Of a stretch of 24,114 nucleotides of DNA, positions 13,226 through 23,900 are shown in pieces. The position numbers and the translations under genes were made by a program. The first letter of the stretch is position 1, and the number at the start of each line of letters is the position of its first letter. A model generated the notes under the pieces. The model saw nothing but the letters and a program-made list of their open reading frames with translations, made no database searches and was not told the origin of the DNA. This DNA comes from a virus, in the IMG/VR virus record IMGVR_UViG_3300029955_000138, positions 1 through 24,114 of that record. The stretch is one strand, 5' to 3'.

Positions 13226-13234
13226 CCTCGCTGA

Positions 13235-13264
13235 GGGAGGGGGCTTCGGCTCCCTTTCTTTTTT
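13235..13264 (+). terminator. Intrinsic terminator with UUCG tetraloop
   Basis: Stem 13235-13244 pairs with 13249-13258 over 10 bp (three G-U) and is closed by the very stable C(UUCG)G tetraloop. A T-run at 13259-13264 follows. It ends the unit that contains the recombination genes and the Acb2-like gene. The polymerase gene starts 31 nt later without a promoter I can recognise, so some read-through or antitermination is likely. Confidence 0.88.
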
Positions 13265-13294: not shown

Positions 13295-14398
13295 ATGAAA
13301 CCAATAATCCTCCTAGGCGAGTCCCCCTCCGCCGCCGAAGAAAAGCTAGGCATATCCTTCTGCTCCTCCGGCGGGCTTGAGCTCCTCAAGATGCTTGATG
13401 AGGCTGGGGTCATCACTCTCACCGCGGCCGACAACGATTACATCCGGCGGTACTGGAACGCCAACGACCCCCTGATGCTTGACATGGTCTGGCGGCTTCA
13501 CCCCGAAGTCACCCGGCTCAACGTCTTCCCCTACGCACTCCCCGGCAACACCATACTCAACGCTCTCGGCGAGAAACCCACCGCCATCCCCGGCTACCCT
13601 AATCTAGAGAAAGGCGCCCGCGGCTATGTCCAGAATGAATTCGCGCCAGCACTTCGCCAGTTGGAGCAGGCTCTTAATCACAGCGATGCTAACATCGTTG
13701 TTGCTCTTGGCAATACACCACTATGGGCGCTATGTGGTACCACAGGAGTATCAAAGCTACGAGGTACCGTCCGAACCTCCTCTCACACCGTTGCCGACTT
13801 TAAAGTCCTGTCTACCTACCATCCCGCTGCCGTTTGTAGACAGATCGAACTTCGGGCGGTCACGATCTTTGACCTTATGAAAGCAATGCGGGAGAACGAA
13901 TCCCCCGCGCTGATGTTACCCGAACGCGAAATCTGGGTCGAACCCACCATTAAAGACATCGAGGTGTTCTATGAACAATACATTAGAAGATCTACTCTCC
14001 TTAGTACAGACATTGAAACAGCTGGGAATCAGGTTACATGCATTGGCTTCGCACCCGACGCCGGACGTGCAATCGTCATTCCTTTCTATGACGCCCGGCG
14101 CAAGGGCCGCTCTTATTGGGGGAGCGCAAGCGACGAGTGTTATGTCTGGCGCATTGTCGGATCTATTCTTGCTGATCGAAGCATCCCAAAACTCTTCCAG
14201 AACGGACTGTACGATATTGCCTTTCTCTGGCGCGCAGTCCACCTCCCAACCTACGGCGCCCTCCACGACACCATGCTCCTCCACCACGCCCTCCAACCGG
14301 AGTCATTGAAGAGCCTCGACTTCCTCGGTTCAGTCTATACCAATGAGTCGGCGTGGAAGCGGGATCACCGGATGATGACGAACAAGAGGGATTCGTGA
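13295..14398 (+). CDS. UDG-like domain fused to the first part of a DNA polymerase 3'-5' exonuclease (367 aa)
   Basis: Residues 1-200 look like a uracil-DNA glycosylase superfamily domain: GESPSAAEE (8-16), NVFPYALPGN (76-85), VVALGNTPLWAL (135-146) and the late motif STYHPAAV (173-180). The four iron-sulfur Cys of family 4 UDGs are not evident. Such domains are fused to polymerase in some phages, for example SPO1. Residues 230-355 are a DnaQ-like exonuclease: Exo I STDIETAG (237-244, D239/E241), Exo II FQNGLYDIAFL (301-311, N303/D307) and LHDTMLLHHAL (323-333). The protein stops at SAWKRDHRMMTNKRDS, before Exo III, which is at the start of the polymerase gene at 14657. The exonuclease site is therefore split between two polypeptides. 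The SD is weak (GAAAAG). A terminator lies just upstream. Confidence 0.85.
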   Translation: MKPIILLGESPSAAEEKLGISFCSSGGLELLKMLDEAGVITLTAADNDYIRRYWNANDPLMLDMVWRLHPEVTRLNVFPYALPGNTILNALGEKPTAIPGYPNLEKGARGYVQNEFAPALRQLEQALNHSDANIVVALGNTPLWALCGTTGVSKLRGTVRTSSHTVADFKVLSTYHPAAVCRQIELRAVTIFDLMKAMRENESPALMLPEREIWVEPTIKDIEVFYEQYIRRSTLLSTDIETAGNQVTCIGFAPDAGRAIVIPFYDARRKGRSYWGSASDECYVWRIVGSILADRSIPKLFQNGLYDIAFLWRAVHLPTYGALHDTMLLHHALQPESLKSLDFLGSVYTNESAWKRDHRMMTNKRDS

Positions 14399-14610
14399 TG
14401 GACTTCAAAGAACTGTCCAACCCATTTGACTTTAATATGTGGGGTGCTTATGGCCTTAATATTAAATTCATTATCATTGAATTGGGTGGTGTTTATTCAA
14501 CATCATTTTGTGTGTATCCTAGTGATAAGGTAATCATGCTTAGTAAAGCGAGGTCACTAAGCGAAGCACAAAAACAATGTGAGCAAAAAGAAAAGGAACA
14601 CAACCAATGA
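14398..14610 (+). CDS. AT-rich small gene inserted in the split DNA polymerase (70 aa)
   Basis: ATG 14398 overlaps the exonuclease stop (TGATG) and has SD AGAGGG (14386-14391). Residues include NPFDFNMWGAYGLNIKFIII, a beta-rich ELGGVYSTSFCVYP, and a Lys/Glu/Gln-rich helix (SEAQKQCEQKEKEHNQ). By eye count, 14401-14580 has 64 G+C of 180 (about 36 percent), against about 57 percent in 14281-14340. This points to a foreign origin. No homing-endonuclease motif (LAGLIDADG, GIY-YIG, HNH) is seen. It ends in an ATGA overlap with the micro-ORF at 14607. Function unknown. Confidence 0.65.
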   Translation: MDFKELSNPFDFNMWGAYGLNIKFIIIELGGVYSTSFCVYPSDKVIMLSKARSLSEAQKQCEQKEKEHNQ

Positions 14611-14678
14611 GCAAGCTTAGAGACATTTACCTTGTACTGACCGGCCGCTGCCTACAATGCGGTGTGAAATGCGAATAA
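14607..14678 (+). CDS. Micro-ORF overlapping the polymerase start (23 aa)
   Basis: ATG 14607 overlaps the previous stop (ATGA) and has a good SD AAAAGGAA (14592-14599). The product is MSKLRDIYLVLTGRCLQCGV followed by KCE, with three Cys near the end. Its stop lies beyond both candidate starts of the polymerase gene (14657, 14669), neither of which has an SD. Ribosomes ending at 14678 could re-initiate on the polymerase ORF. It is best read as a translational coupler or a truncated gene. Confidence 0.4.
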   Translation: MSKLRDIYLVLTGRCLQCGVKCE

Positions 14679-16168
14679 TCAAATCCCACCTCCGCACCGA
14701 GGCCGACCTCAAAGGTGAGATCGGTGATTGGATTTACAACGGCCTTGACTGCTGCGTCACCCGCGAGGTATTCGATGTCATCCACTCCCAACTCGACCAA
14801 GCCACTGCCGCCACCTACGCGTTCTCGCGAGACCTTCAAGGCCCTGTTCTCGAAATGCGTTGTCGCGGAGTCCTTGTTGATACCCTACGACGTATGGAGG
14901 TTATCGACGAATACCACAACGACCTCGACCGCCTCGAAAACCAACTCGAATCCATCGTCCTCGACGGCTGCGGGCTCGAGTCCTTCAAATGGTCCTCACC
15001 CAAAGACCTCGCCAAGCTTTTCTACGAACATCTTAAAATCCCTCCGATCAAAAGCAAGGGCCGCGTATCAACTGACGTCAATGCTCTTGGCAAGATGCAA
15101 GCCTACCTCATCGCCCGGCCGATCGTTAACCATATACTTGGTATGCGAGAACTCGCCAAACGAATATCTGTCCTGCGTACTCCCCTCGACCCTGATGGCC
15201 GGATGCGATCATCTTATAATATCGCCGGAACTAACACAGGTCGTTTTAGTTCGTCCTTCTCCGAGTTCGGAACCGGCGGTAATCTACAAAATGTCGAAGA
15301 ACGGCTGCGGTCTATTTTCGTTGCCGACCCCGGAATGAAGTTCGCCAAGTGCGACGCAAAATCAGGAGAGAGTTATGTTGTTGGAGCGATCGAGTGGAAC
15401 CTGTTCAACGACCCCACTTACCTCGATGCGGTCGAGTCTGGCGACGTACACACAGCTGTAGCTAAGCTCTGCTGGGCTGACCTGCCCTGGACCGGTGATC
15501 TTAAACACGATAAGGAAATTGCCGAGACCCCATACTACCGACATTACTCTTACCGGTTCATGTGCAAAAAGCTTGGTCATGGTTCGAATTACGGTGGACA
15601 GCCCTTCACCCTGGCCACACAATCCCACCTTCCCATCGGAGTCGTTCAGCAATTCCAACCCACCTACTTCGCCGCCTTCCCCGCCCATCGACTTTGGCAA
15701 CAGTGGGTTGCCGATGAGTTATTTAAAACAGGCAATCTCACAACTCTCACAGGCCGTAAGCGCTGGTTCCACGGCCGACGTAACGATCCCTCAACCATAC
15801 GTGAAGCCATTGCTTACAATCCTCAAGGAAGCCTTGCGGATATAGTGAATACCGCGATGCTGAATATCTGGCGCGAGGGCCGGGTCCCGATAGTCATGCA
15901 CGACCACGATGCCTTAACCTTCATGTACCCAGAGGAGCAGGAAGATGAGATTATTCCTTGGATTATGGACCGTCTTGTGGTTCCTGTTCGGCTGGCTGGC
16001 GGGCGGGATTTACGTATCCCATATGATTGTAAAGTAGGCTGGAACAAAGGCGACTACGACGCCAAGAAAAACCCCGAAGGACTGAAAGATTATGAACCGC
16101 AAGATAGCCGGCGTCGGCAAAAGAAGCTTGGAATCTTGGATCGCCCGGTTTGTGGAAGTCACCGCTAA
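14657..16168 (+). CDS. Family A DNA polymerase, polymerase domain with the end of the exonuclease domain (503 aa)
   Basis: It begins with the missing Exo III motif, IYNGLDCCVT (26-35, Y27/D31). Then come TGRFSSS (194-200), NLQN (209-212), motif A KCDAKSGES (231-239, D233/E238), motif B RFMCKKLGHGSNYGG (300-314; R300, K304, Y312), YNPQGSLADI (387-396) and motif C MHDHDAL (414-420, D416). It copies the phage genome. Two oddities: motif B has His308 where E. coli Pol I has Phe762 and T7 has Tyr526, and motif C is HDH rather than HDE. Starts at 14657 or 14669 lack an SD; coupling to the 23-aa ORF is likely. The ORF is in the same frame as the exonuclease gene, as expected if one ancestral gene was interrupted. 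Its 3' end overlaps the helicase gene by 77 nt. Confidence 0.92.
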   Translation: MRCEMRIIKSHLRTEADLKGEIGDWIYNGLDCCVTREVFDVIHSQLDQATAATYAFSRDLQGPVLEMRCRGVLVDTLRRMEVIDEYHNDLDRLENQLESIVLDGCGLESFKWSSPKDLAKLFYEHLKIPPIKSKGRVSTDVNALGKMQAYLIARPIVNHILGMRELAKRISVLRTPLDPDGRMRSSYNIAGTNTGRFSSSFSEFGTGGNLQNVEERLRSIFVADPGMKFAKCDAKSGESYVVGAIEWNLFNDPTYLDAVESGDVHTAVAKLCWADLPWTGDLKHDKEIAETPYYRHYSYRFMCKKLGHGSNYGGQPFTLATQSHLPIGVVQQFQPTYFAAFPAHRLWQQWVADELFKTGNLTTLTGRKRWFHGRRNDPSTIREAIAYNPQGSLADIVNTAMLNIWREGRVPIVMHDHDALTFMYPEEQEDEIIPWIMDRLVVPVRLAGGRDLRIPYDCKVGWNKGDYDAKKNPEGLKDYEPQDSRRRQKKLGILDRPVCGSHR

Positions 16169-17315
16169 CCTTGAGTCTCCTGTCTTATTCCGCAAGTGGA
16201 CCGCCATCGCAACCATCGCGGCGGTCCTTGAACAGAAGGTGTGGATAACCACGTCCTCACCGATGTACCCGAACCTCTACACCTTTCTAGTAGCACCACC
16301 CGGCGGAGGTAAATCTCGTGCGATTGACTTGGCTCACGACCTACTCCACACGCTGCCAGATCCTTATGTCGCACCCACCTCGATCAATGCGGCTTCGATT
16401 ATCGATCACCTACTCGAATGTAAACGGATCATCATCCAACCGCAAATGGCCGCAATTGAATATCATGCTATGTCCATTCTCGTGGGTGAGTTCGGGACTT
16501 TCATGTCGTCTTATGACGATGACCTTATGGCCATCCTTACCGATTTCTACAACGTCAGACCTTACGGTCAACGCCGCCGCGGAGGAAATCTAAAGATCAA
16601 AATCGAACGACCCATGTTGAACATGCTCGTCGGCACAACCCCAAGCAACCTCATGCGATTCATGCCGGAGAATGCTTGGGGCCAAGGCTTCGCGTCCCGT
16701 ATCCTCTTTGTTTACGCCGACGACAAGGAAAGGATTGATGATTTCGCTGTTAAGAAAACAGAACTCGCCGCGGATCTTGTCTCCGACATAGCGCAGATCA
16801 ACACCCTCTGCGGGCAGTTCTCAGTCTCCGAAGACTACCGTACCGCCGTTAACAACTGGCGCGAGCTTGATGAGAACATTCCGCCGAAGCCTACTCATCC
16901 ACGGCTCCAACATTACAACTCACGGCGTAAGGAACATCTCTACCGGCTGTCTATGGTTTCGGCTGTGGATCGCGGTAACGCCCTGCTCTTAACCAAGGCC
17001 GACTTCAACCGCGCGATGTCTTGGTTGATTGAGGCTGAGCAAGCTATGCCGCGGATATTCCAAAGCTCTACCACAGACACCGGCGACTCAGCGGTGATGG
17101 ATGAAGCCGTGCACATGATCCAATCCCGCGGGGGCGCGGTAGAGGAAGGGCAACTCGTCCGGTTCCTTCGCCAGCGCGTACCATCTCATTCCGTCCTCCG
17201 TGTCCTTGAAGTCATGGAGCGGTCAAACCTAATCACCGAAGTCAAGCGAACTCGATTCGGTGTTAGGATTTTCGGTGCGGGGGAATTGGACTCAGACGCG
17301 CCGTTACCGGATTGA
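16092..17315 (+). CDS. DUF3987/YfjI-like replicative ATPase, putative helicase (407 aa)
   Basis: ATG 16092 follows GAAGGAC (16076-16082) and overlaps the polymerase gene by 77 nt. The family N-terminal pattern is ESWIARFVEVTANLESPVLF (14-33) then KWTAIATIAAVLEQ. Walker A is APPGGGKS (68-75), Walker B is ILVGEFGTF (129-137, acidic E133), a sensor region reads LVGTTPSNL (179-187) and a probable Arg finger lies in GQGFASRILFVY (197-208, R203). The C terminus looks like a winged helix (EEGQLVRFLRQRVPSHSVLR then LEVMERSNLITEVKR). DUF3987 proteins are common as phage replicative helicase or primase-helicase partners. It likely unwinds the template for the adjacent polymerase. No primase domain is seen. 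The gene ends 12 bp inside the convergent spanin-like gene. Confidence 0.8.
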   Translation: MNRKIAGVGKRSLESWIARFVEVTANLESPVLFRKWTAIATIAAVLEQKVWITTSSPMYPNLYTFLVAPPGGGKSRAIDLAHDLLHTLPDPYVAPTSINAASIIDHLLECKRIIIQPQMAAIEYHAMSILVGEFGTFMSSYDDDLMAILTDFYNVRPYGQRRRGGNLKIKIERPMLNMLVGTTPSNLMRFMPENAWGQGFASRILFVYADDKERIDDFAVKKTELAADLVSDIAQINTLCGQFSVSEDYRTAVNNWRELDENIPPKPTHPRLQHYNSRRKEHLYRLSMVSAVDRGNALLLTKADFNRAMSWLIEAEQAMPRIFQSSTTDTGDSAVMDEAVHMIQSRGGAVEEGQLVRFLRQRVPSHSVLRVLEVMERSNLITEVKRTRFGVRIFGAGELDSDAPLPD

Positions 17316-18270: not shown

Positions 18271-18696
18271 CTAGTGACCTTGGAATTGATAAAATTCACC
18301 CAACCGCCGGCCTTCCAACTCCGGCGGATGAACCCATAATTTAAACGCCTGTGCTGCTAAGTCCATCCGGCCGGCGTTGATGTAATGCACTACAGCTGAA
18401 TGACTTAATCCAGCGCAGCCGATGTTGTAGCCCAAGCTCACCAGCGCGTCGAACTGATATTGTTTCAGCGGTTGGTGAACACAGGAATTGATTGTGTCCT
18501 CGACGCTCTGTACGTCGTGCGCGAGGAGTTCCATGGATTTCTTCTCGGTGATCTGTTGCCCGCGGAACACGCGGAAGTAAGCATTGCTCAAATGCCCCAC
18601 GCCGATCGTCCACAACCCGCGAGAGTCGGGGTAGGCTTTAAGCCGTACCCCCTCGCGCGCCTCAAGTCGGGCTAACCCATTTATCGAAGTATGCAT
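18271..18696 (-). CDS. Endolysin, T4-type GH24 lysozyme (muramidase, 141 aa)
   Basis: ATG at 18696-18694 overlaps the stop of the large gene (TAATG). The catalytic E-D-T layout of GH24 is intact: E15 in AREGVRLKAY, D24 in YPDSRG and T30 in LWTIGVGH (28-35). Further family motifs follow: FDALVSLGYNIG and HYINAGRMDLAAQAFKLW. It hydrolyses the MurNAc-GlcNAc bond of peptidoglycan. There is no signal peptide or SAR segment, so export should depend on the holin-like protein downstream. At 141 aa it is compact; the C terminus (RRLGEFYQFQGH) is slightly shorter than in many phage lysozymes. Confidence 0.95.
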   Translation of the reverse strand: MHTSINGLARLEAREGVRLKAYPDSRGLWTIGVGHLSNAYFRVFRGQQITEKKSMELLAHDVQSVEDTINSCVHQPLKQYQFDALVSLGYNIGCAGLSHSAVVHYINAGRMDLAAQAFKLWVHPPELEGRRLGEFYQFQGH

Positions 18697-21600
18697 TAAT
18701 GCCTCCGTTGTAGTGTGCCGTGGGACAGGCCACGGACAACATCGCCTAGGTCAACTGGGTGTTCTGTGTTCGAATGAATTCCATACAAAAACTGCCCTGC
18801 CTTCGCGAGATGGTTAATTGGCAGCCCGGTGACCTCACTCCCAAAGAACGCCATATGTTTCTCGAACTGAGCTGCCCATGGTTTGGTCCAAGCTTTCTTT
18901 GAGGTCACATCACGCCCGATGTCGGTGAAGGATTTCAGCCCGGCCGTGATAAGGCTGCCTTCGGGATCATGCCCGGAGTAGATCGCTTGCACGATGTCGC
19001 GAATGATTGGTAGGGTCGAGCCGAAGGCATGAAGCGTTCCCTTCACTGCACGAGACATTATCCCTTCTTGTGGGTCACCTCCACCAGACACGGTCTCTTC
19101 GACCAATCCTGCTACAATCATGCGAGTAAAGATATTTGCGGCTCGGGTTGAGTTGTCCGTCGCGTTCTTAACCCCGGCCGCATCACCACCCCAAGCATCC
19201 TTCACACGCCAGTTCATTTCATAAAGCTTCTGGAACATTTCGTTGAAGAACCCATAGAACTGCGTCGTGGCTTTGGCGAATGGGTTGCTACTGCGCATGA
19301 CTTCTGGTTTATTCGTCAGCGCCGACGACCCATGCGCATCACGAACTGACTTATCTGCCAACTCAATCGCCCGCCCTACAGCCGCGGGGTCCGCTGCGAT
19401 TTGGCGTTTGTATTCAGCCAACCACGTCGGAACCGCCGAGGCAAGATCCGAGTAAGCCACACCCGAGGTGCCCCACTCACGGAAGTTCTGCCCAAGCTCT
19501 TTGGCCTTGCCCCATGGCGTAGCATCGGCGCCGGGGAACTTAAGACCATGCGATGTTTGCAATGCCTCGGGGGTTAGCCGCGATCTCCTCGCCAACTCAT
19601 CCGAACGATCCATCGCGAACTGCCACCAAGTCTTTCCTTTGATTGGCCCTTCGCTACCGGCCGTACGCACAGCATCAAGGAAATGCAACGGCCCTACTTG
19701 CAGCGCGGAGTTGCTCAACGCCGTCAGACCGTGCTTCGCTATAGTCGCCACGTTGAATCCAATCTCCGCCGCGGCTGTGTTCCGGAGCAGGGTGTGAATC
19801 AGGCCGTCAGCTTGGCTCAACACCACCGGATCAGCGTCGGCCGAGCCAGCAAGATCCCTCACCCACGGCTTGAACATGTCCGCGGCTTGGTCGCTGTAGT
19901 GAGCAGCAACCGCGGCCAGCACTCGCCGATCATTTATGATTTTGTTCGCCTCTATAATCGCCGGGCGCATCGCGATGTCATGAGCCATCTGCTTCATACG
20001 GAGCGGGATCACTGATGTATCCAGCAACACATTTCCGCGATAGTTTGTACGATCCTTTGCGTATCTCTGATCGGTCGTGGACTGAAACCGCTCCATTCCC
20101 TGTGCGCCACTTGGCGTGATCTCCGTGGGCAACCGATCCTCGCCGATCTTCGGGGTCTTGATCGCGCGCCGGTCGTAGGCAATCGGATTGTACCAGCCCT
20201 TGACATCGGCACCGTGCGGATTATCTACCACACCAAGCTTCAACTTCTTAATCCCAACCTCCGAAAGATCATAACTCATCCGGTCGGCTTGGTTAAACAG
20301 GCGCTCGAAGATGTCGCCGATCTTCTGCATCTTCTCCCAGTCTTCGGCAGTGGTATTCTTCCGGACCCACGCCTGAACTTCACCAGCATCGACCTTCCAA
20401 CCCTCAACCATCCGCGCGAAGTTATCGGCATTGCCCATATTCGCGAGGACCGCGATCACATTGTTCCGGGTCATTTTCATAAAGCCGGGTTCGCCGTCAG
20501 GCCGGGGGAAGAGTCTATTCTCAACTTCCTGATGGAGATCTTTGAAGTCCCCGATCTCATTAAGTTCTTTCGCGATCTGCTTAATCGCCCGGTCTTCGGC
20601 GTTAGCCGCAGCGATCAACGGCCGAGCCACGTATTTAGTAAACGGCCCGTCGAAATCACCATGGTCAAGTCTCCGGCAGATCGACTCGATGTTCACCGCC
20701 GACATAACCCTCGCCGACAACTGCTCGCGGAGCCCGGGCTTCTTTGGGGTCGCTGGGTAATCATTGGGTTTGGCTTTAACCGATCGCGCGGCAGCAATCA
20801 ATTCCTGCGCCACAACCTCGCGGTCGAACTGTTCGCCCGCCACAATGATCTTCTGCTCATCCCGTCCGTTCTTCTCCATGGCCTTCATGAAGTCCGCGAG
20901 TTGTTCAAACTCATCGGCCTTGATCGAGCTCATGTTCTCTTTCCAAGCAGGATCAAGCAAGAACTCCGGAACCGGAATCTGATGCCCATCATTGATCTTC
21001 TGCTGCAAGAAATCCTGCAGCCCACCATAGCCAGCCTTATCCATGTTGCTGGTGATATCAGCCCGGTCGCGCTTGATAGGCAACCCCAACCGATCCATAA
21101 CCGCATGAATTTGATCCGTGTACTCCTGCCGAACAGTTGGCTTTCCCAGATCGCCGATCACGCGTTCCTTGAACTTCTTCATTTGCTTGTCGAACTTGGC
21201 CTTGGTCCGCTCTATCTCCAACGCACGATTGGCCATGATCGACGCAAGGAACTTCCGCTGGCGGTCTGCGAAGGCAGCCTTGGGGTCCTCATGAAGAAGC
21301 TTGTCCTCGATCTTGTTGTTCAACCGATTGATCGCCGCGAGGATGTTATCGCTGTCGATCATGCTCAGCGGGGTGTTGTTGAACTTATCCCGCGTCGCCC
21401 CCTCGATCTCCTCCCGGCTCAGAGGCAGATCAAATCCATGCTCCTCCGCCATGGCTTTCAACTCAGCCGCCATGGAGTCCAGCGCGGTAGCTGGCACGAT
21501 CCTTTGCTTGGTCACGGCCTCAACCGCGTCCTTGAAAGTCCCATGCTCCTCTTCCATCCACCGTGCCGCGAGTTGATCCGCGATCCGCCGGGTGTATTCC

Positions 21601-23900
21601 ATTGGTTGCATTTTCCCGCGGTTGGCATGAAGCGCAGTCAGGTCATCAATCAGCGCTTGACCAGAGGTATGGCCGGTGTACCGCGCGATCTGATCCGGCA
21701 GGTGCCCATCCTTACCGTAGTAACTCCTCGGCAACACCGCCTTCTGTTCATCGGTCAAAGCATCCGAGGCGATCTTAAACTCGCCCGAAGACAACCCCTG
21801 ATCCGCGATAAACCGCGGCATCTCTTTCATTTCGTCAACGATCTTACTCCGGATCACTGCGAGCTTCGCTGCCCACTCCGGTGCCATCCGTTTCTTTTCC
21901 TCGGCCATGCCTTTCTTAAGCCGGCTCTCGTACTCAGCTTTGTTCTGGGCCTCGATGGCTTTTTGGTACAGGTCCCACTGGCCTTTGTTCATGCCGATGG
22001 CGCGCGGGTCCTTGAAGATCCGGATCTCTTCGGGGCGAGCCGTGATAGTGCCGCGAGCCGGAATTGGAAACGGCTCGATCGGCGAATCAAACCCGGCCTT
22101 GTTCCCGTTCCAGATACCCTTGATGAAGTCCTTAATCTCCGGCACGACGTCAACATGGCCGGTGACCTTCGCGTAGATTTCCTTCCAGACGTCAGCAATG
22201 CCCTTGAAGAATTTCTCAACCACGCCGGTAGGTTCTTCGGTCTTGGTTGCCCACCGCTGGACCTGTTCCGCGAACCATTCTGGGAAGGAACGCATATAGT
22301 TTTGATTCGCTGTGCTTGTGTTTTCAATGCGTATGCCATGGGCATCTTCCGGCACACTCAGCGGTCTGTTTTGCCCGACAGTTTCTTCTTTACCAAACTC
22401 CCTCCGCCAAGCATCGCGGACGGATGTCTGCACCTCAGGTCCAACATCCCGGAACCGCTGGAACTCGACCTGATGCCCGAGCTCGTGCAACGTCGTAGCC
22501 ACAGCCAGCTTTGGATCAAGCTTCTCATTTAGCACGATATGGCCTGTGGAAGAGGCGTAGCCGAAATGGTGATCAGGCCCGTACGCCGACCAAACCTTCG
22601 GCGTAACCGGCAACCCAAACTTCTCCGCAAGATCATCCACGATCTTCTGCAACGGCGCATGCCACTCCGGAGCCGCCGGATGCTCAGCATCGCGGTAGTT
22701 GAAGAACCCGGCTTGCTTGGTTACATTACCTTCCGGATACTTTGACTCGGCCCCTGACTCCGGAGGTACCGCATCCTTCTCGAACTTGGTCAGCGTCTCT
22801 GGGTCGACCCGGATCCCGTCTTCAATCGAATGGAAAACCTCCGGCGTGGCATTAGCCATCAAGTCCGCAATCGGCACCTTCACATCCGCGCCGGCGGCTT
22901 TGGCCAACTCAAGCTGGTTAGCCATATCCGGAACGAAGCCAAGGATCCCGTCGTCGCTGGCTGGAACCTTATCCCCATACAACGCTCGGACAACATCCGC
23001 GCTGATCCCGATGGTATCATCACCATGATGTTGCTCGGCGAAGTCTTTGAAGAACTCCGGGACGCGTTCGCGGGTGGCCGAAGACTGAGCATCCGAAAAA
23101 GCCTGCTTGATCGCGTCAACCTTCTCGTCAGCTACCTTATCACGCACCTTATCAATCTCAGGAAACTTCCCACGCTCCGGCGCCCGAGCCGCTTTGATAT
23201 AAGGCGCCATCTCAGCCGCGGCCACATGCCCGCCAGCTTCCCCGCCGGTCCGGAACATCTCATTCTCAACCATCCCACCGAGGTCGCGTTGGAGTTGCTC
23301 AGCGGTACCTAGACCGATCTTTGCTCCCGCAGCTTCCGCCCCCGAGGCCTTATACCCATAAGCCAACCCCGCGATACCAGCGTTAAGCACCTGCCCCGGA
23401 AGCGCGAACAGCCCGGTGAGATTATCAACATCCGGCACGATTGAGTTGTTAACGAATGATTTCCAATAAGGGCTATCGGAGAGATCCGCGAGGCGCTGGG
23501 CTTCCTTTGGGTCCGTGAGTTCGGGCTTCGCTTCATTCCAAGCATCAGCCACCGTCGAGAAGAAAGTCTTCTTCGGTACAGCTTCCGCGGCTTTGGAATA
23601 AGCATCGAGGTTGGCTAGATCATCACTCGAAACCTTAGCCTTCATCGGGTCAGAGATAACATAATCCCGGAGCTTCGGGTTGTTCTGAACAATATCCCCT
23701 GCGGCCCGTGTGTTAACCTGTGCCTTGAACCGATCCAGATCTATATTAATCGCCGCCGGGTTCACTCCGGTTTGTTTGCCGAGGTTCACTGCTTCGGCGG
23801 CTTTGTCAGGATTGCTGCCTACCGCCGCTGCCGTAATGGCGCGGGGATTTGGCATCATCGAAAAGGCAGACTCGAGGTCGCTCAGATCATTGTCCGGCAT
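18696..23900 (-). CDS. Giant internal-virion/polyvalent-type protein with zinc metallopeptidase motif (1734 aa)
   Basis: ATG at 23900-23898 overlaps the upstream gene by 14 nt. A zincin motif, TTLHELGHQVEF (470-480; H472, E473, H476), is followed by FPEWFAEQ (539-546), whose Glu541 or Glu545 could be the third zinc ligand. An amphipathic or hydrophobic stretch lies at about 162-182 (TGLFALPGQVLNAGIAGLAY). The middle is helical, charged and coiled-coil rich. The C-terminal third (SNALQVGPLHFLDAVRTAGS; FGSTLPIIRDIVQAIYSGHD) resembles the LPD-type domains at the ends of phage polyvalent proteins, from memory. Such proteins are packaged, injected with DNA and may cut or bind envelope components or host targets. 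It sits next to the lysis genes in the late arm. Similar giants occur in podoviruses. The domain assignment beyond the zincin is tentative. Confidence 0.8.
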   Translation of the reverse strand: MPDNDLSDLESAFSMMPNPRAITAAAVGSNPDKAAEAVNLGKQTGVNPAAINIDLDRFKAQVNTRAAGDIVQNNPKLRDYVISDPMKAKVSSDDLANLDAYSKAAEAVPKKTFFSTVADAWNEAKPELTDPKEAQRLADLSDSPYWKSFVNNSIVPDVDNLTGLFALPGQVLNAGIAGLAYGYKASGAEAAGAKIGLGTAEQLQRDLGGMVENEMFRTGGEAGGHVAAAEMAPYIKAARAPERGKFPEIDKVRDKVADEKVDAIKQAFSDAQSSATRERVPEFFKDFAEQHHGDDTIGISADVVRALYGDKVPASDDGILGFVPDMANQLELAKAAGADVKVPIADLMANATPEVFHSIEDGIRVDPETLTKFEKDAVPPESGAESKYPEGNVTKQAGFFNYRDAEHPAAPEWHAPLQKIVDDLAEKFGLPVTPKVWSAYGPDHHFGYASSTGHIVLNEKLDPKLAVATTLHELGHQVEFQRFRDVGPEVQTSVRDAWRREFGKEETVGQNRPLSVPEDAHGIRIENTSTANQNYMRSFPEWFAEQVQRWATKTEEPTGVVEKFFKGIADVWKEIYAKVTGHVDVVPEIKDFIKGIWNGNKAGFDSPIEPFPIPARGTITARPEEIRIFKDPRAIGMNKGQWDLYQKAIEAQNKAEYESRLKKGMAEEKKRMAPEWAAKLAVIRSKIVDEMKEMPRFIADQGLSSGEFKIASDALTDEQKAVLPRSYYGKDGHLPDQIARYTGHTSGQALIDDLTALHANRGKMQPMEYTRRIADQLAARWMEEEHGTFKDAVEAVTKQRIVPATALDSMAAELKAMAEEHGFDLPLSREEIEGATRDKFNNTPLSMIDSDNILAAINRLNNKIEDKLLHEDPKAAFADRQRKFLASIMANRALEIERTKAKFDKQMKKFKERVIGDLGKPTVRQEYTDQIHAVMDRLGLPIKRDRADITSNMDKAGYGGLQDFLQQKINDGHQIPVPEFLLDPAWKENMSSIKADEFEQLADFMKAMEKNGRDEQKIIVAGEQFDREVVAQELIAAARSVKAKPNDYPATPKKPGLREQLSARVMSAVNIESICRRLDHGDFDGPFTKYVARPLIAAANAEDRAIKQIAKELNEIGDFKDLHQEVENRLFPRPDGEPGFMKMTRNNVIAVLANMGNADNFARMVEGWKVDAGEVQAWVRKNTTAEDWEKMQKIGDIFERLFNQADRMSYDLSEVGIKKLKLGVVDNPHGADVKGWYNPIAYDRRAIKTPKIGEDRLPTEITPSGAQGMERFQSTTDQRYAKDRTNYRGNVLLDTSVIPLRMKQMAHDIAMRPAIIEANKIINDRRVLAAVAAHYSDQAADMFKPWVRDLAGSADADPVVLSQADGLIHTLLRNTAAAEIGFNVATIAKHGLTALSNSALQVGPLHFLDAVRTAGSEGPIKGKTWWQFAMDRSDELARRSRLTPEALQTSHGLKFPGADATPWGKAKELGQNFREWGTSGVAYSDLASAVPTWLAEYKRQIAADPAAVGRAIELADKSVRDAHGSSALTNKPEVMRSSNPFAKATTQFYGFFNEMFQKLYEMNWRVKDAWGGDAAGVKNATDNSTRAANIFTRMIVAGLVEETVSGGGDPQEGIMSRAVKGTLHAFGSTLPIIRDIVQAIYSGHDPEGSLITAGLKSFTDIGRDVTSKKAWTKPWAAQFEKHMAFFGSEVTGLPINHLAKAGQFLYGIHSNTEHPVDLGDVVRGLSHGTLQRRH

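Follow-up and report, generated by a model that had tools for sequence, protein, structure and literature searches.

The gene for a family A DNA polymerase in a large group of phages from soil and freshwater was found to be cut in two inside its proofreading exonuclease domain, with the DEDD catalytic set (Exo I, II and III) complete, yet divided over two open reading frames (ORFs). We consider it likely (probability ∼0.8) that the two products make up a two-subunit, operon-encoded polymerase in which the exonuclease site would be shared in trans. Behind this reading stand a clade-wide split, invariant catalytic residues, purifying selection, inserts at the junction and recurrence of the cut in a sister group, all of which are observed at the level of sequence.

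Organization of the polymerase locus

The window (i.e. the whole stretch of the virus record that was analysed, 24,114 bases) carries the polymerase gene as an upstream ORF, the N-half, and a downstream ORF, the C-half (Table 1). Pfam matches of the N-half were to uracil-DNA glycosylase (UDG; 2.5e-7) and to DNA_pol_A_exo1 (2.2e-4, just under the cut-off), and that of the C-half was to DNA_pol_A (2.4e-35). Against the DNA polymerase profile PHROG_17 the N-half covered positions 548-788 and the C-half positions 809-1248, so that the two ORFs are successive pieces of one polymerase profile. The read-through of a related locus, L003, matched the T. maritima UDG TM0511 (4.7e-7), and the N-terminal domain is family 4-like by sequence; the UDG-fused polymerase architecture is one that we take to be SPO1-type.

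Table 1. Positions of features at and around the polymerase locus of the window.
Feature	Position	Strand	Description
Terminator-like hairpin	13233-13260		strong; T run present; lies shortly before the N-half start (13295)
N-half	13295..14398	+	367 aa; UDG-fold domain and N-part of the 3'-5' exonuclease; C-terminal end ...AWKRDHRMMTNKRDS
Exo I D239/E241, Exo II N303/D307	within N-half, 13295..14398	+	motif reading
Small ORF 1, 70 aa	14398..14610	+	start overlaps N-half stop (TGATG)
Small ORF 2, 23 aa, MSKLRDIYLVLTGRCLQCGVKCE	14607..14678	+	ATGA overlap with small ORF 1
C-half	14669..16168	+	Exo III (YNGLDCCVT) and family A polymerase domain; mechanical ORF call at 14657
DUF3987/primase-like gene	16092..17315	+	77-nt overlap with C-half; order kept in 82 related loci
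1734-aa ORF	18696-23900	−	adjoins the replication module

A preliminary description of this DNA had placed Exo I and Exo II in the 367-aa protein and Exo III with the polymerase domain downstream, the two being parted by a spacer with two coupled small ORFs. Coordinates and motifs were confirmed, and every junction in the spacer was found to overlap, the last one (between small ORF 2 and the C-half start) by 10 nt. The same description began the downstream ORF at 14657. Its content of Exo III (Tyr and Asp of the motif are Y27/D31 in numbering from 14657) and polymerase domain stands, whereas the true start is most likely 14669 (MRIIKSHL...), since this start is common to L004, L007, L011 and others (shared MxII); the ATG at 14657 adds four residues that are absent from relatives.

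No homing-type endonuclease gene was found at the window's own cut: the 70-aa ORF had no family match, and a length of 23 aa leaves small ORF 2 too little room to encode such an enzyme. Both ends of the 23-aa ORF resemble those of a 105-aa junction ORF (MSKIQDIFRVL...CGVKCE) in L011, the window's nearest relative, and it is probably a shortened remnant of an ORF of that type.

Upstream of the N-half, the terminator-like hairpin suggests that the polymerase genes may have their own promoter; a scan with the sigma-70 consensus gave none. At the other end of the locus, the overlap of the C-half with the DUF3987 gene (16092-16168) has a similar length in most related loci.

Conservation of the split and inserts at its junction

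An IMG/VR scan with a C-half profile returned 343 relatives, 80 of which were kept; scans with the C-half of Caulobacter phage Kuura, the Kuura N-half and the C-half of L100 gave one, three and five loci, respectively. Among the 89 assessable loci (both halves readable), which include some duplicates of one contig, there are 75 distinct N-halves and 74 distinct versions of the C-half. In every one of the 89 the polymerase gene is cut at the same place and its halves are separate ORFs, exonuclease and polymerase thus not being encoded in one polypeptide. Klenow-like family A features are present (a DNA_pol_A domain with palm motifs). The cultured phage Kuura has the same split (gp29, N-half; gp26, C-half), and two loci beyond the 89, L100 and L101, are split likewise. 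In cellular genomes the closest match, L093, came from a Terriglobia (Acidobacteriota) MAG contig, which hints at this group as possible hosts.

The catalytic residues are invariant on both sides of the cut. D239, E241, N303 and D307 did not vary in any sequence that covers them (72-75 distinct N-halves), nor did the tyrosine and aspartate of Exo III in 74 distinct C-halves or the palm residues D229, H413 and D414 (numbering from 14669) in 73. Over three locus pairs, dN/dS was close to that of the polymerase domain on both sides of the cut: ∼0.1–0.2 in the exonuclease portion of the N-half, and likewise in the Exo III segment as far as it could be measured there. Because a lone half cannot be expected to form a DEDD site, assembly in trans would best account for this joint conservation. 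The first of three options raised in the preliminary description, that two polypeptides rebuild one exonuclease site, is thus strongly favoured by the invariant motifs and low dN/dS, although the motifs might conceivably be retained for something else, e.g. a role in DNA binding.

The distance between the halves varies widely. In 24 of the 89 loci there is no insert, Exo III lying 63-66 nt past the N-half stop and most junctions being an ATGA overlap; elsewhere up to 1.7 kb separates the halves, filled mostly by ORFs unrelated to each other. Nucleases of three unrelated classes occupy the Exo II/III junction in eleven relatives: HNH (L022, L080, L091 and L092, with L024 assigned by PHROGs and a weak HNH in L049), endonuclease VII (L027, L033 and L035) and LAGLIDADG-like (L064 and L048). 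One HTH protein and many short ORFs of no known family were also found, and most junction inserts are such small ORFs without a known family rather than nucleases. At the junctions of L100 (5980-6414) and L101 (6133-6525) lies a DUF1937/DUF4406 protein, which is not a nuclease, and at that of L095 (3157-3678) an RNase H-family protein (Pfam 6.7e-7). As a control, the N-half/C-half junction exceeded 100 nt in 54 of 82 loci, against 4 of 82 for the C-half/DUF3987 junction; the gap upstream of the N-half is also variable, so variability per se is not unique to the N/C junction. Homing endonucleases and other small ORFs use the junction as a landing site; the endonucleases lodge there and are the probable cause of some of the cuts.

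The cut site and its recurrence in a sister group

The L003 polymerase was modelled as a single chain in one frame, with its TAG read as Q (residue 370). A first AlphaFold model, built on few unpaired alignment rows, had poor confidence near the junction (pTM 0.50) and was superseded by an AlphaFold2 model whose alignment included fused relatives (mean pLDDT 91.3, pTM 0.87). Low confidence in the latter was confined to two segments, the four C-terminal residues and residues 360-371, a stretch that includes the stop codon. The model matched the Klenow fragment with a TM-score of 0.77 by target length over a span that includes both halves, and the polymerase of phage G20c was also matched; in sequence, the Klenow alignment continues past the cut and keeps both Exo II and Exo III aligned. 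From the low-confidence stretch of the model and this alignment, the cut site is therefore predicted to be a flexible loop between Exo II and Exo III. As a joined chain, the model indicates that the halves are compatible as one fold and is no proof that separate chains bind.

In the closest fused relatives the loop at the cut position is short (∼30 nt), and the proteins of the split family are longer here by some dozen residues or more, with additions at both new ends. The suggestion that unsplit homologs would lack exactly 14398-14668 thus holds roughly, but not to the nucleotide. The new ends are themselves conserved, the N-half tail as ...TxKRD and the C-half lead as M-x-I-I, the latter a predicted beta strand.

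Most members of a sister group carry a fused UDG-exo-pol gene. Six of them are cut at the Exo II/III place (L118, L144, L159, L166, L169 and L175), L118 and L159 with bare overlapping or adjacent halves and L175 by a lone TAG that could be an error. Two are cut between UDG and Exo I (L116 and L139), and eight just after the palm motif NLQNIP (L097, at 5162, and L140, L150, L153, L155, L160, L161 and L163). The insert between the UDG and exonuclease domains of L116 (1413-1650) and L139 (4157-4394) is HNH_3 (Pfam 2e-10); at the palm site, L153 and L161 carry inserts that on visual inspection resemble HNH-type homing endonucleases but had no Pfam match.

In a quick tree, with support given by SH-aLRT only, the window clade formed one group with full support and the six other Exo II/III cuts were scattered; a single clade for all Exo II/III cuts was rejected (p 2.9e-18). 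Family A polymerases are generally fused. Given this and the scatter on the tree, the simplest account would be about seven independent cuts at the Exo II/III place, some six of them beyond the window clade.

Origin of the split, alternatives and known systems

In the scenario that we favour, an ancestral single UDG-exo-pol gene would have been cut once, in the Exo II/III loop, in the ancestor of the clade, and the split then fixed. Both subunits would be produced from one operon via overlapping or adjacent stop and start codons and would associate such that the DEDD site forms at their interface, the N-subunit giving three acidic residues and the C-subunit the fourth together with its tyrosine. 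The 70-aa and 23-aa ORFs of the window would be passengers at the junction, interrupting neither protein. Physical association and active proofreading are, on this evidence, probable.

How the founding cut arose is a separate matter. A simple mutation (an indel, or a stop together with a new start inside the gene) at a loop that tolerates change, with homing endonucleases arriving later because a site between two cistrons is harmless, would be compatible with two subunits and has in our estimate a little less than an even chance of being the origin. Many loci have the ATGA overlap and no insert, the sister-group L118 and L159 have bare cuts, and the loop is the sole disordered internal stretch of the L003 model; against this, nucleases sit in recently cut genes (L166, and the UDG/Exo I and palm sites), as expected if homing had cut them. 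A bolder proposal, which we hold to be rather unlikely, is that the cut is adaptive: the C-subunit would be a non-proofreading polymerase that gains proofreading and uracil sensing when the UDG-exo subunit docks reversibly, with the TxKRD tail and the M-x-I-I lead as docking elements gained after the cut. Such docking would explain the absence of re-fusion throughout the clade and the repeated cutting (about seven times) of a single loop.

Turning from origin to function, the halves could act apart, the C-half as an exonuclease-deficient polymerase and the UDG-exo protein independently, with proofreading lost. The halves are indeed always separate genes, and the C-half alone contains the whole polymerase domain. 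The preliminary description had named always-separate halves with an unused Exo III as one of two findings that would refute it; the separation holds, but Exo III is invariant. Exo III serves no purpose in a C-half acting alone, and an N-half acting alone is one acidic residue short of the four; even so, every motif is kept and both regions are under purifying selection. Loss of proofreading conflicts with this pattern in both halves, and we regard it as improbable.

Less probable still is that the interruption is removed or skipped, whether by a group I intron, split intein, read-through, frameshift or ribosomal bypass, to yield one polypeptide. Introns and split inteins are known from phage polymerase genes, and the window ORFs share a frame, as had been pointed out in the preliminary description; over the 89 loci, however, the offset between the halves is random (28:29:32), so the shared frame of the window is chance. 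Furthermore, the 24 insert-free loci, mostly with an ATGA overlap, leave nothing to splice out, and where inserts occur they are mutually unrelated and the junctions are ORF-coupled. No intron RNA was found in the window spacer: Rfam gave no match even at E≤5, bar a chance one to an lncRNA, and the RNA structure was not unusual (fold z-score −0.45). There is no room for intein halves: the N-half ends ∼12 residues past a conserved WK, and the C-half starts ∼22 before Exo III. Lastly, the split could be an artefact of sequencing or assembly or a sign of gene decay, which was conceivable for what was at first sight a single contig and for one-off cases in the sister group (L175, one TAG). For the window clade this is refuted by purifying selection, by the split in all 89 loci and by contig L001 from a different metagenome, whose junction is identical (2 differences in 4,932 bases, neither at the junction), so that the stop at 14396 is genuine.

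Polymerases split in association with homing endonucleases have been described before. According to the accessible part of one report (PMC2988022), gene 43 of Aeromonas phages 25 and 44RR (43A/43B) and nrdA of phage Aeh1 are likewise divided into two ORFs, separated by either a homing endonuclease or untranslated sequence; gp43A and gp43B of phage 25 co-purify and are active, and the Aeh1 NrdA, split by a homing endonuclease gene, is active. These cases differ in being a family B polymerase or a ribonucleotide reductase in single phages rather than a whole clade, and a division of proofreading residues between chains is not described in that part of the source. PolA of the OM43 phages MEP401 and MEP402 and most group I relatives is also in two ORFs with a small ORF between; there the cut is inside the polymerase domain, ORF13 holding the exonuclease domain and the N-terminal part of DNA_pol_A, so that no exonuclease site is shared between chains, and the authors suspected an intron (PMC10580990). 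In the N4-like Vibrio phages JA1 and VchO139-I an HNH gene splits the DNA polymerase gene; it was read as possibly intron-borne, and the accessible text does not state the cut position (PMC3670811). The 'fractured' PolB gene of MIJ3 likewise has polymerase ORFs parted by an HNH gene, but intein halves rejoin the protein (PMC6892783), for which the window family has no room. The nearest unsplit relatives, the fused UDG-exo-pol proteins of Microcystis phage Mel-JY34, MW202489, vir526 and the IMG/VR sister group, share domain order, motifs, fold and PHROG_17, but are single polypeptides with a short loop at the cut place; the Klenow fragment has the same order, motifs and fold without UDG, also in one polypeptide. 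The literature searched, mostly open-access papers, contained no clade-wide or recurrent cut through the proofreading site between Exo II and Exo III, and a paper on phage DNA polymerase swapping makes no mention of such splits; within that literature, this cut is the new part.

The UDG-exo half is annotated as a 'hypothetical protein' (e.g. Kuura gp29), such that phages of this kind appear to be without proofreading. If the two-subunit reading is true, they would instead have a natural two-component proofreading polymerase, in which the exonuclease active site forms when two gene products come together and not otherwise; a large phage clade would have retained this arrangement, and it would have evolved more than once. 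Such a system could be used to study how essential genes are broken up by selfish endonucleases and how an active site can withstand a cut, and it might also provide a laboratory polymerase with separable, switchable proofreading.
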